A DNA stretch of 64,000 nt from Hyphomicrobium sp. LHD-15 (GTDB taxonomy: Bacteria; Pseudomonadota; Alphaproteobacteria; Rhizobiales; Hyphomicrobiaceae). The stretch lies in assembly GCF_031157355.1 (NCBI RefSeq), contig NZ_JAVIFT010000006.1, forward strand, positions 124,001 to 188,000, in the 5' to 3' direction. The position numbers were made by a program, and so were the translations under genes. Numbering within the stretch: position 1 is the first letter of the stretch; each line of letters starts with the position of its first letter. Of the stretch, positions 34,967 to 42,474 are shown piece after piece. The notes beneath the pieces were generated by a model. It made no database searches. It saw nothing but the letters and a program-made list of their open reading frames with translations, and had not been told where the DNA came from.

Positions 34967-35938
34967 TCAGGCCTTGGCAATCCCGCCGGCCCGCGCAGCC
35001 TTGAGGCGGCGGAAATCGTCGCCCGCATGATACGAAGACCGCGTCATCGGGCTCGACGCCACGACGAGAAAGCCCTTTGCGAGCGCGACCCGGCGCAGAT
35101 CCTCGAACTCCTCCGGCGGAACGTAGCGCTTGACCTCGGCGTGTTTCGCTGACGGCGCCAGATACTGCCCGATGGTCAGGAAATCCACATCCGCCGAACG
35201 CAGATCGTCCATCACCTGCAGGATTTCGTCACGCGTTTCGCCAAAACCGACCATCAGGCCGGATTTCGTGAACAGCGACGGATCGATTTCCTTGGCCTGC
35301 TGCAAAAGCCGCAGCGAATGGAAATAGCGCGCCCCCGGCCGAATGCGCACGTAGAGACCCGGCACCGTTTCGAGATTGTGATTGAGCACGTCCGGCCGCG
35401 CCTCGACGACGTGCACGAGCGCGCCATCCTTGCGCAGGAAATCCGGGATCAGCACCTCGATGCTGGTATCTGGCGCGCGCCGCCGCACTTCGCTGATCAC
35501 CGAACCGAAATGCACGGCTCCGCCGTCCTCGAGATCGTCCCGGTCAACCGACGTGATGACCACGTGTTCAAGGCCGAGGGTCGCCACCGCCTCCGCCACG
35601 CGCTGAGGTTCACCCGCATCGAGCGGCAAAGGTCGCCCGGTCGTCACGTTGCAGAACGCGCACGCCCGCGTGCAGATCTCGCCCATGATCATCATCGTGG
35701 CATGGCGCTTCTGCCAGCACTCGCCGATGTTCGGGCAACCCGCCTCCTCGCAGACCGTCGCAAGGCCATTCTGGCGCACGATCGCACGCGTCGCGAGAAA
35801 CCCGTCGGACGAAGGCGCGCGCACGCGGATCCACGGCGGCTTCGGCAGCATCGGCTTGTCCGGCCGATGCGCCTTCTCGGGGTGACGCGGGCGCTGGGCG
35901 CCGTCGCGTGGCGCCCGCGTGTCGATGAGTGTGACCAT
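34967..35938 (-). CDS. lipA: Lipoyl synthase LipA
   Basis: A 323-residue radical-SAM enzyme that inserts two sulfurs into octanoyl groups on lipoyl domains. [13 protein letters not shown] binds the auxiliary [4Fe-4S] cluster, [10 protein letters not shown] the radical-SAM cluster, and the C-terminal RSSYHA contains the conserved Ser ligand. I chose ATG 35938, preceded by AGAGGA; GTG 35968 would add 10 residues. In related genomes lipA directly follows pdhABC-lpdA; here no E2 or E3 gene lies between it and the E1 genes. Confidence 0.96.
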
Positions 35939-35973
35939 GACCGTCCTCTGCCGGACTCGCTCTGACACGAGTT

Positions 35974-36003
35974 TAGCCTCGGATCGTCGCCGATGCGAGG
36001 CTA
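35974..36003 (-). promoter_or_regulatory. Hairpin in the lipA leader
   Basis: TAGCCTCG (35974-35981) pairs with CGAGGCTA (35996-36003), with inner ATCG/CGAT and a TCGC loop, 36 nt upstream of the lipA start. No T-run follows in either direction. It could be a 5'-UTR element or mark the end of the glsB transcript. Confidence 0.4.
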
Positions 36004-36058
36004 CGCAAGTCGACGATAACCCAGGGCCGTTCCGACTTTAGGGGTAGCGCGGGCCTTT

Positions 36059-36346
36059 TCAGCGCCCGCCGAGGAAGCGGGCCACGATGACCACGATCAG
36101 CGCACCAACCGTCGAAACCGCGATCTGGTTGCCATAAGGGATGATGGCGTCGAAATCGTAGGGCACGGTGAGCAAGCCGGCGGAAACCAGATAGCCGCCG
36201 AGCACTGCGCCGATCAAACCGACCAGGAGGTTGCGGATCAGTCCGCCGCCGCCAAGCAAAAGCCCAGCCAGCCAGCCCGCGACCAGGCCGTTCAGGATCA
36301 TGATGATCCAGGCCTTGTTGTCGCTCGCGAATTGTACGTAGTCCAT
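36059..36346 (-). CDS. GlsB/YeaQ/YmgE-family small membrane protein
   Basis: A 95-residue inner-membrane protein with three helices (WIIMILNGLVAGWLAGLLLGG, NLLVGLIGAVLGGYLVSAGLL, IAVSTVGALIVVIVARFLGG). The Gly-rich GLLLGGGGLIRNLLVGLIGAVLGG region is the hallmark of transglycosylase-associated/GlsB proteins, often stress-induced, with unknown mechanism. It occupies space between E1 and lipA where E2/E3 genes are expected in relatives. Confidence 0.85.
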   Translation of the reverse strand: MDYVQFASDNKAWIIMILNGLVAGWLAGLLLGGGGLIRNLLVGLIGAVLGGYLVSAGLLTVPYDFDAIIPYGNQIAVSTVGALIVVIVARFLGGR

Positions 36347-36397
36347 CGAATGCTCCCCTAACCTCTACCGACCGGCCTTAAAGGCCATAAGTCTTTC

Positions 36398-36446
36398 AGA
36401 CCATGACTGCTCCGCGCCCTTTGAGCCTGACGCGTGAATCACTGAC
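36398..36446. repeat. Palindromic repeat, family A, degenerate copy
   Basis: GACCATGACTGCTCCGCGCC, CTTTGAGCC, TGACGCGTGAATCACTGACG keeps the CCATGA...GCGTGAATCA frame of family A but has lost most inner pairing. It lies upstream of glsB. Confidence 0.5.
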
Positions 36447-36596
36447 GCATCAAGGCACCGGACTTCGGCGGAATTTACATCGGAAGAGTACAAGGTTCGC
36501 GAAAAAGTGGGACCACAGTCCCACGGCGACCAAACGCCCAAAAAACCGCAACGGTTACAGAGGCTAGAACGCGCCCCGCACCAATGCAGCAGCGGA

Positions 36597-40282: not shown

Positions 40283-40458
40283 CTTGGCTCCTCGTGCACT
40301 TCGGGTCGTCTGCTTCCGATGCGACCGGACGTCGGCTTCGGCGTGAGACTCAGGGCCGCAATCAGCTCCCTATCTCTGCCATCGAACGACAAAACTTACA
40401 CGACGGAATGGCCGCGAAGCCAGCATCACTCATGTTGCGGCGCAACGAAGCGAGCGTA

Positions 40459-40507
40459 GACCATGATCGCTTCGGACCTTATCAGTCCGAAGCGTGAATC
40501 ATCGGTT
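40459..40507. repeat. Palindromic intergenic repeat, family A, copy 3
   Basis: ACCATGATCGCTTCGGACC, TTATCA, GTCCGAAGCGTGAATCATCGGT; the 47-bp core is identical to the copy at 34360. It lies in the gap between ftsB and the E1 alpha gene. Confidence 0.85.
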
Positions 40508-40519
40508 TCACAAAAAACC

Positions 40520-40586
40520 ACAGTGATCGCTTCGGACCCACGCGCTCCGATCGTCGCGGCCCCTATCGGCCGCGGCGTGAATCGGC
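40520..40586. repeat. Palindromic repeat, family A, rearranged copy 4
   Basis: CAGTGATCGCTTCGGACCC begins as family A, then a GCGGCC/GGCCGC-containing segment interrupts it before GCGTGAATCGG. It follows copy 3 by 13 bp, so the 390-bp ftsB-E1 alpha gap (40283-40672) is largely repeat. I see no gene in that gap. Confidence 0.6.
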
Positions 40587-40672
40587 AGCGCAGGAAATGT
40601 CCGCGTAGCGCGAACATAAGCACAACATGAGCGATGACGAGAGGGGTTAGAAGGCCGGGCGCAACGACTTGG

Positions 40673-41002
40673 CTATCCGGCGGGAGAATTGTCCACGACG
40701 ACACGATCCCGTGGGTCGGCGAAGCCGAGCACCTCACGGGCGATTTCTTCGACGAAATCAGGGTCGGGAAGATCCGGCCGCAACAGCGCCACATCACGCT
40801 CGAGTTTGGCGCGCACGGCCTCGAGGCTTTGGATCTCGAACTGCAGAACGCTTTCGCGCTCCAGCAGCCGATCTCTCGCCTCGAGGCCGTGGCGGCCGTT
40901 CAAGGTGTGATAGGCGAAATAGGCCGTCAATCCGAGGCAGAGAAGCAACACCAGCGCCTGCCGCGACCTGGCTCGCCCATCATATGTTTTCTGACGCAGC
41001 AC
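40673..41002 (-). CDS. ftsB: Septum formation initiator family protein (FtsB/DivIC type)
   Basis: 109 residues: a short cytoplasmic N-terminus (RQKTYDGRARSR), one helix (ALVLLLCLGLTAYFAYHTL), then a periplasmic coiled coil (LEARDRLLERESVLQFEIQSLEAVRAKLERDVALL) and a C-terminal EEIAREVLGFADPRDRVVV. This is the FtsB layout; the protein joins FtsL and FtsQ at the division site. Location after eno is standard in proteobacteria. Confidence 0.88.
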   Translation of the reverse strand: MLRQKTYDGRARSRQALVLLLCLGLTAYFAYHTLNGRHGLEARDRLLERESVLQFEIQSLEAVRAKLERDVALLRPDLPDPDFVEEIAREVLGFADPRDRVVVDNSPAG

Positions 41003-41181
41003 GAATGTTCGACGTTACGCGTTATGAGAAACCGGGAACGAAGTGATCCTACGTGGATCACCTTAAGACGAGGTAAAGCACCGTACCGGCCCGGAATTTC
41101 GGAAGGCCATCAGATCCCGCAATGAAAACGGCGCCGCTGCTGTCGCAGGGCGCCGCAATTTCACGCGCGTGGCCTTGGCGT

Positions 41182-42474
41182 TTACGCCACGGCGCGATCA
41201 CCGCGCAGGATGCTCTTGCCCGCATAGACCGCGACATCGCCCAGCTCGCCCTCGATACGGATCAACTGATTGTACTTCGCGAGCCGGTCCGAGCGGCAGA
41301 GCGAGCCGGTCTTGATCTGCCCGCAGTTGGTCGCGACCGCGAGATCGGCAATCGTCGAATCCTCGGTCTCGCCCGAACGATGAGACATGACGGCCGTGTA
41401 GCCCGCGCGCTGGGCCATCGACACGGCGTCGAGCGTCTCGGTCAGCGTGCCGATCTGGTTGACCTTGACCAGGATCGAGTTTGCCGTCGCCGCCTTGATG
41501 CCGCGTGCGAGACGCTTGGTGTTGGTCACGAAGAGGTCGTCACCAACGAGCTGTACGTTCTTGCCGATAGCGTCCGTCAGCGCCCTCCAGCCGGCCCAAT
41601 CGTCCTCGCCCATGCCATCCTCGATCGAAATGATCGGGAAGCGCTTTGCGAGGTCTTCGAGGTAGCGCACCATGCCCGCGCTATCGAGGCTCTTGCCCTC
41701 GCCAGCGAGCTCGTACTTGCCGTTCTTGTAGAACTCGGTCGAAGCGCAATCGAGCGCCAGCACCACGTCTTCGCCCGGCTTGTAGCCGGCCTTCTCGATC
41801 GACTTCATGATGAAGCTCAGGGCCTCGTCGGCGCTCTTGAGGTTGGGCGCAAAGCCGCCCTCGTCGCCAATGCCGGTGTTGTGGCCGGCGTCCTTCAGGG
41901 CCTTCTTCAGCGTATGGAAGATCTCGGCCCCGACCCGGATCGCGTCCGAAACGGTCGGCGCCGAAACCGGCATGATCATGAATTCCTGGATGTCGATCGG
42001 ATTGTCGGCATGCGCACCGCCGTTGATGATGTTCATCATCGGCACCGGCAGCACGTGGGCGGAGGTGCCACCGACGTAACGGTAGAGTGGCAGCGAAGCG
42101 GCTTCCGCGGCGGCCTTTGCGGCCGCGAGCGAAACGCCGAGAATGGCGTTGGCGCCGAGGCGGCTCTTGTTCTCGGTATCGTCGAGCGAGATCATCGCCG
42201 CATCGATCCCGCGCTGATCTTCCGCATCGAGCCCGATGAGCGCGTCCGAGATCTCGCCGTTGACGGCATCGACGGCCTTCTGCACGCCCTTGCCGAGATA
42301 GCGCTTGCTATCCCCGTCCCGCAGCTCGATCGCCTCGTGGGCACCCGTCGAGGCGCCCGAAGGCACCGCCGCCCGCCCCATGGAGCCGTCCTCGAGCATG
42401 ACATCGACCTCGACGGTCGGATTGCCGCGGCTGTCCAGAATTTCGCGGCCGAGAATGTCGACGATGGCGGTCAT
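41182..42474 (-). CDS. eno: Enolase
   Basis: 430 residues catalysing 2-phosphoglycerate to phosphoenolpyruvate. [19 protein letters not shown] opens the protein. The catalytic acid/base region is GEGGFAPN, metal ligands lie in LDCAST and IEDGM, and the C-terminal [13 protein letters not shown] holds the catalytic Lys and the family signature, followed by [12 protein letters not shown] 42474 has GAGGA upstream; the frame is open to 42537 but the extra residues are not enolase-like. In serine-cycle methylotrophs enolase is also a cycle enzyme. Confidence 0.97.

Follow-up and report, generated by a model that had tools for sequence, protein, structure and literature searches.

What keeps the first component of a pyruvate dehydrogenase (PDH) in place where the genes for the other two are gone? 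The question is raised by a locus of Hyphomicrobium sp. LHD-15 that lies in a window of 64,000 nucleotides (the whole stretch analysed, G000:C6:124001-188000) from a genome of 4.29 Mb (G000; 10 contigs, completeness estimate 100%), where genes for an E1α-like (PdhA) and an E1β-like (PdhB) protein stand between ftsB and lipA. The original prediction saw here a canonical PDH locus that was merely without its E2 and E3 genes. We compared it with seven sister genomes (eight Hyphomicrobium genomes in all, genus g1) and with the family Hyphomicrobiaceae. All that the locus retains of an old α2β2-type PDH is its two E1 genes, E1α and E1β, with altered active sites and with open reading frames (ORFs) that are intact and constrained. 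On balance we favour the reading that the pair is a pseudoenzyme, which would have been retained for a non-catalytic role after an AceE-AceF (AceEF) complex took over catalysis.

Altered E1 proteins and absent partners

The E1α protein matches Pfam E1_dh and the E1β protein matches Biotin_lipoyl, Transket_pyr and Transketolase_C, with the human E1p chains 1ni4_A/B as best solved relatives. Residues were mapped to human E1 by alignment with 1ni4; the numbers αHis63, βHis128 and Glu59 and the catalytic roles of the aligned positions are those that we take to be generally accepted. Compared with a canonical reference of 19 rows (17 from the family, two from other families), E1α of the window displayed the changes FCHL to VCPL, GDGAANQGQ to GDGAASRGR and ENN[KR]YAMGT to DNNTAAPGA and a shortened GHSMSDPAKYRTREE loop, with GDG...NN kept, and E1β the changes GEEVAQYQGAY to GVDVAQNRGAP and AQHSQC to GQDARC. 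Across the eight Hyphomicrobium genomes αHis63 is always Pro (CHL to CPL), NQGQ has become xRGR, ENNxYxMG has become DNNTAxPG and the SMSDP loop is 3–5 residues shorter. The lipoyl lysine is gone from all eight E1β proteins (ETDKAT to xTxxAT), as is the first Glu of GEEV (GVDV in seven, GTDV in one), and βHis128 (AQHSQ) is Asp in 7/8 and Gly in 1/8; the His of RGH is kept. Columns invariant in the 19 canonical rows were kept in all eight genomes at 75 of 146 positions in E1α and 95 of 199 in E1β, and a further 22 and 16, respectively, were fixed to one other state. E1α scored 318.6 bits with NCBIfam TIGR03182, under the equivalog cut-off of 393.85, and E1β 425.6 bits with NF008854, under the cut-off of 454, narrowly passing the subfamily model NF006667 (322.5 against 321). 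The word canonical therefore did not hold for a pair that has lost residues invariant in the reference, and judged from these residues the pair is very probably not a working PDH E1.

The predicted collinear order of eno, ftsB, both E1 genes, lipA and coq10, without E2 and E3, was borne out by the ORF coordinates (Table 1), E1β starting 8 nt past the E1α stop with both genes on the minus strand. Between E1β and lipA there are two small lipoproteins and a GlsB-type protein, as had been said, and a tblastn search with canonical E2 and E3 gave the E1β lipoyl domain as its sole match. The same split arrangement, in which the two lipoprotein genes and glsB come after E1β and E2 and E3 are absent, was present in 7/7 sister genomes, and both missing places were spanned by sequence in all seven (the contig of G003 stops short of lipA and that of G005 starts within eno). 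An assembly artefact was rejected because the sisters include the single-contig G006 and the 3-contig G007. Complete loci in other genera of the family read pdhA-pdhB-pdhC-lipoprotein-lipoprotein-lpdA-glsB-lipA-coq10; since the pdhC and lpdA sites are separate in these loci, two stretches are missing around conserved neighbours, and the lipoprotein genes that lay between the two were left in place.

No E2 of the locus type was found elsewhere in the window genome, so the pair is an orphan, as predicted, and of the two fates offered for E2, lost or moved, only loss stood. The genome has four E2 genes (PF00198): SucB (whose gene adjoins sucA and lpd), two AceF, and one short E2 in an acetoin-dehydrogenase-like cluster (labelled so from its gene make-up) that also holds E1α, E1β, Lpd, an LplA-like ligase and a sigma-54 regulator. 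A move of E2 was likewise rejected for G004 (H. zavarzinii), G011, G034 and G114, each of which has just two E2 genes, a SucB-like one (judged by score) and one adjacent to aceE. For E3 the picture differed between genomes: an E3 of the PDH-locus type (63–67% identity) was detected elsewhere in 5/8 Hyphomicrobium genomes, in G000 within the acetoin-dehydrogenase-like cluster, and was not found in the other three.

Two complete homodimeric aceE-aceF-lpd clusters are present in the window genome (C1 near 612 kb and C3 near 49 kb). Their AceE proteins (1447.7 and 1460.2 bits) pass the TIGR00759 equivalog cut-off of 859.9, and their AceF proteins (551.0 and 541.7) fall slightly under the TIGR01348 cut-off of 552.1. 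With these two clusters the cell can probably form PDH independently of the window locus, and growth on pyruvate or succinate, proposed earlier as a test, would not necessarily be impaired. AceE would have been acquired later, and AceE-AceF-Lpd is the probable replacement for the old PDH.

In the acetoin-dehydrogenase-like cluster (L029, G000:C1:1463000-1481199) the E2 ORF is without a lipoyl domain, one being encoded directly upstream in another frame; the regulator is of the sigma-54/Fis type and the Lpd is 67% identical to the PDH-locus E3 of G014. In an unusual, 2-oxoacid-dehydrogenase-like set (L031:9088-12194, within G000:C2:402000-421000), a pair resembling E1α and E1β precedes a single protein that combines a lipoyl domain with a hexapeptide acyltransferase.

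Table 1. Features of the E1 locus, in window coordinates.
Feature	Position	Strand	Remarks
coq10-like	34466-34924	-	Flank
lipA (lipoyl synthase)	34967-35968	-	Flank
GlsB-type small membrane protein	36059-36346	-	Name from the original prediction; without Pfam match
lpdA (E3) place in complete family loci	36347-36596	.	Empty in the window; from comparison with complete loci
Small lipoprotein	36597-36950	-	Name from the original prediction; resident also in complete loci, with lpdA after it
Small lipoprotein	37189-37638	-	Name from the original prediction; resident also in complete loci, with pdhC before it
pdhC (E2) place in complete loci	37639-37955	.	Empty in the window; from comparison with complete loci
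E1β-like (PdhB) ORF, 442 aa	37956-39284	-	Lysine-less lipoyl, PYR and C-terminal domains
Lipoyl-like domain of E1β, without lipoyl lysine (ETDKATMEV to ATSSATVEI)	39054-39284	-	Alignment, Pfam
E1α-like (PdhA) ORF, 329 aa	39293-40282	-	Pfam E1_dh, motif alignment
ftsB	40673-41002	-	Flank
eno (enolase)	41182-42537	-	Flank

No Pfam match was obtained for the two small lipoproteins either. The repeat that the original prediction had placed between E1β and lipA lay within chance expectation: the longest direct repeats in 35900-38100 were 23 nt at 74% and 14 nt exact, with no excess over chance, and a repeat as deletion footprint was rejected with just such short matches present. In G001 the coq10 and glsB matches are just 106 bases apart (L070:6644-6749), and lipA, which normally separates them, is missing there. 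Elsewhere in the window, an ORF at 33231-34349, between cinA-like and coq10 genes, has pentapeptide-like repeats in its translation.

Selection, spread and history of the degenerate pairs

Neither E1α nor E1β has an internal stop in any of the eight Hyphomicrobium genomes, the sister proteins being 70–77% (E1α) and 63–74% (E1β) identical to those of the window. The ratio of nonsynonymous to synonymous substitution rates (dN/dS) was 0.15–0.21 for E1α and 0.17–0.26 for E1β (six of 28 pairs per gene, all against G000) and 0.07–0.14 for eno (six of 15 pairs), values that are rough since dS is high (mean pS 0.53–0.57). The mean ratio of nonsynonymous to synonymous differences (pN/pS, Nei-Gojobori) was 0.307 for E1α and 0.385 for E1β, compared to 0.137 for eno, 0.190 for lipA, 0.234 for ftsB and 0.299 for coq10 (6 to 8 genomes). 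The domains of E1β were compared between the eight Hyphomicrobium genomes and five genomes of the canonical genus g8. The catalytic domains are relaxed about fourfold in Hyphomicrobium (PYR domain dN/dS 0.199 vs 0.048, C-terminal domain 0.276 vs 0.075), and with 0.114 vs 0.065 the lysine-less lipoyl domain is more constrained than they are (mean pairwise identity 0.84 vs 0.88); the linker gave 0.475 vs 0.324. The frames are neither broken nor neutrally evolving, as those of a pseudogene would be, and the combination of kept domains, lost catalytic residues and a sequence under selection is that of a putative pseudoenzyme. We are confident that the pair is retained under selection.

The E1 locus, counted by a strong E1α or E1β match, was kept in 53 of the 103 Hyphomicrobiaceae genomes searched. 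Active-site motifs were read in 53/53, partly where contigs end: E1β is cut or out of reach in G060, G086, G032, G061, G062, G076 and G081, G010 has no E1α to read, E1α of G084 is in two pieces, and the genes of G078 are on separate contigs. Fifteen pairs from five genera are degenerate but open, namely the eight of Hyphomicrobium, G011 and G034 (g5), G114 and G028 (g22), G026 and G124 (g20) and G020 (g14). The lipoyl lysine was absent at the aligned position in 15/15, and no stop was found within the matched parts of any of them, the E1β match of G020 ending at profile position 410/446. The remaining 38 had canonical E1 motifs wherever readable, including four with a locus-type E1α (G061, G062, G076, G081) that are canonical as far as their contigs reach. 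Beside the pair, neither E2 nor E3 was found in g1, g5, G114 and G020, the E3 place of G034 lying beyond its contig. G026, G124 and G028 retain a low-identity E2 (cut off in G124 by the contig end), with no E3 in the sequence available, and the E2 of G026 and G028 is without the lipoyl lysine and the catalytic His. In g5 and G114 even the GDG...NN motif is broken with the ORFs open, and the g5 pair (G011/G034) gave dN/dS values of 0.16 and 0.19.

A strong AceE (PF17831 >300 bits) was present in 12/15 genomes with a degenerate pair compared to 6/38 with a canonical one (Fisher p 2.0e-5, uncorrected for kinship). No E1 pair was found in 50/103 genomes, 35 of them with a strong AceE.

Other departures from a complete PDH were seen in the family. 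In G028 (L107) E1 and E2 are degenerate, and neither AceE nor PFOR was found at 94% completeness. For G017 and G029 (99 and 100% complete) no AceE was found, E1β matches were no better than 2e-8 and 5e-8, and the one E2 of each is SucB-like by score; these two perhaps have no PDH at all. In g8 the locus E2 (G014, L078:9993-10955) consists of E3-binding and catalytic domains without a lipoyl domain by Pfam, so that E1β bears the sole lipoyl domain seen at that locus; no lipoyl motif was found in the aligned E2 frame of G082, G085, G086, G087 and G088 of the same genus. The PDH-locus E2 of G113 and G115 (L103, L106) is without the lipoyl lysine (ETATATMEV), with E1 motifs intact and no E3 found at the locus, and a further locus of G113 (L104), at the beginning of a contig, carries E1β, E2 and E3.

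The pair probably became degenerate more than once across the five genera. A tree of five flanking genes (without G003, G016 and G124, for which data were insufficient) requires at least 4 changes between intact and degenerate, which fall to Hyphomicrobium plus G020, to g5, to G026 (whose sister G123 is canonical) and to g22. A single ancient origin, with one dead E1 lineage that spread among genera as their E1 segments were replaced, is a rival on history and not on function. It is suggested by the E1α+E1β tree (without the incomplete rows G060, G084 and G113b), where a single branch with support 85/99 sets all 15 degenerate rows apart; these rows have very long branches and may attract each other, and the branch uniting nine degenerate rows in a smaller, 28-row set has support 20. 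When only the g22 degenerates are added, G028 and G114 join their canonical genus-mates (support 98), a grouping not rejected in the 28-row set (p-AU 0.42); neither is g20 as one group (p-AU 0.17). G026 added alone stays apart from its canonical genus-mate G123, and in a smaller set their pairing is weakly rejected (p-AU 0.046), which again favours a single origin. So do the invariant columns lost in all six lineages, 8 in E1α (expected 0.039) and 5 in E1β (expected 0.028), a number reached in 0/5000 permutations; the permutation assumes independent lineages and an equal chance per column, so the excess is no proof of parallel loss. The residues that replace those around the lipoyl lysine vary among lineages, which speaks against a single origin. 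Taken together, the trees and approximately unbiased (AU) tests led us to claim recurrence and no fixed number of origins, and we regard a single origin as rather unlikely.

What the pair may be kept for

We think it somewhat probable that the kept function is non-catalytic. After an AceEF complex had taken over pyruvate oxidation the old complex would have been freed from catalysis; E2 and E3 would then have been deleted and the E1 active site would have decayed, with selection preserving the assembled E1 for another role outside catalysis. The kept role might be that of a binding, scaffold or sensor protein, with the lysine-less lipoyl domain as the likeliest contact surface.

Several points weigh against this reading. 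Purifying selection tells that a protein matters and not what its role is, and the dN/dS values that indicate it are rough. No AceE was found in three of the 15 genomes with a degenerate pair, G124 (54% complete), G028 (94%) and G020 (100%, with a PFOR-type match). The GDG...NN thiamine-diphosphate/Mg motif is kept in 8/8 Hyphomicrobium genomes, which may leave cofactor binding intact, and the catalytic Glu59 position is acidic in all eight (E in 3/8, D in 5/8), leaving room for some thiamine chemistry. The Hyphomicrobium pair could then be a stand-alone thiamine-diphosphate enzyme, a non-oxidative decarboxylase or carboligase needing no lipoyl domains, E2 or E3. That βHis128, the lipoyl lysine and the SMSDP loop, all of which presumably serve lipoyl transfer, are what was altered would suit such an enzyme, as would the positions fixed to one new state in 8/8. 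New chemistry is nevertheless improbable: Glu59 is Asp in most of these genomes, a different loop follows NN, constraint on the PYR domain is relaxed, and the breakage of GDG and NN in g5 and G114 with the ORFs still open makes catalysis unlikely as the shared reason for retention.

The pair might also act through the new complex, a dead E1 binding AceF, Lpd or the lipoylation machinery and tuning AceEF activity. The company that degenerate pairs keep with AceE, the lipoyl-like domain as the least relaxed part of E1β and the adjoining lipA gene all point this way. In solved α2β2 complexes the C-terminal domain of E1β contacts the E2 binding domain, and in Hyphomicrobium this is the folded domain with the highest dN/dS; G020, moreover, retains a pair although no AceE was found in its genome. 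Both facts sit badly with a regulatory partner of AceEF, to which we give little likelihood. Slow decay, in which the pair is heading for loss and its ORFs are open by inertia, is the fate that the many family genomes with AceE and no E1 pair found would suggest, full loss evidently happening often, and the E2 genes of G026 and G028 appear to be dying. It is very unlikely for the Hyphomicrobium pair, whose ORFs are open in 8/8 diverged genomes with dN/dS far below 1, whose new motifs are themselves conserved (GVDVAQNRGA in 7/8, CPL in 8/8) and whose lipoyl-like domain has a dN/dS of 0.11.

Retention as a non-catalytic pseudoenzyme thus remains our preferred explanation. A broader proposal, which we put forward tentatively, is that in Hyphomicrobiaceae PDH E1 serves a further function apart from catalysis and that several lineages have dropped catalysis, E2 and E3 while keeping E1α and E1β with the lysine-less lipoyl domain as working surface. 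If true, evolution would have run a natural separation-of-function experiment on an enzyme of central metabolism, and would have done so repeatedly.

Comparison with known systems

The original interpretation was partly supported and is exceeded in that the orphan E1 is, by all signs in its sequence, also a conserved dead one. In fold domains, gene order and locus the pair is like the alphaproteobacterial α2β2-type PDH E1 (PdhA/PdhB, with an N-terminal lipoyl domain on E1β). It is unlike that enzyme in having no lipoyl lysine, βHis128 or αHis63, a shortened SMSDP loop, no E2 or E3, and scores below both equivalog cut-offs. The homodimeric AceE-AceF-Lpd PDH, present twice in the window genome, is encoded at other loci and by other gene sets. 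Annotation as pyruvate dehydrogenase E1 can mislead in Hyphomicrobiaceae.

A PDH complex was said to be absent in Hyphomicrobium (Harder, Matin and Attwood 1975, as cited in an excerpt of PMC10602745). That report shares the genus name with the window genome, which has AceEF; the gene content of G017 and G029 would fit its PDH-less phenotype.

Pseudoenzymes are known among kinases, phosphatases and others. Among the matches listed in a search of the open-licence literature, none dealt with a PDH E1 pair that is conserved and yet catalytically dead, and none referred to the orphan pair. The E1α of B. subtilis is reportedly linked to Z-ring placement, with no confirming paper among the matches listed, and moonlighting E1 subunits of this kind reportedly also belong to a working PDH. 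PdhA and PdhB of Mycoplasma are described at the cell surface, as moonlighting PDH E1 subunits, in excerpts of two papers (PMC6287819; PMC4433191). The likeness suggests a second, non-catalytic role for E1 subunits here too, with the difference that in the window pair catalysis appears lost, so that the second role would be the sole one. In several related lineages a core metabolic enzyme thus seems to have been supplanted, with its first component retained for another purpose, and a hidden non-catalytic role of PDH E1 becomes directly testable in a methylotroph.

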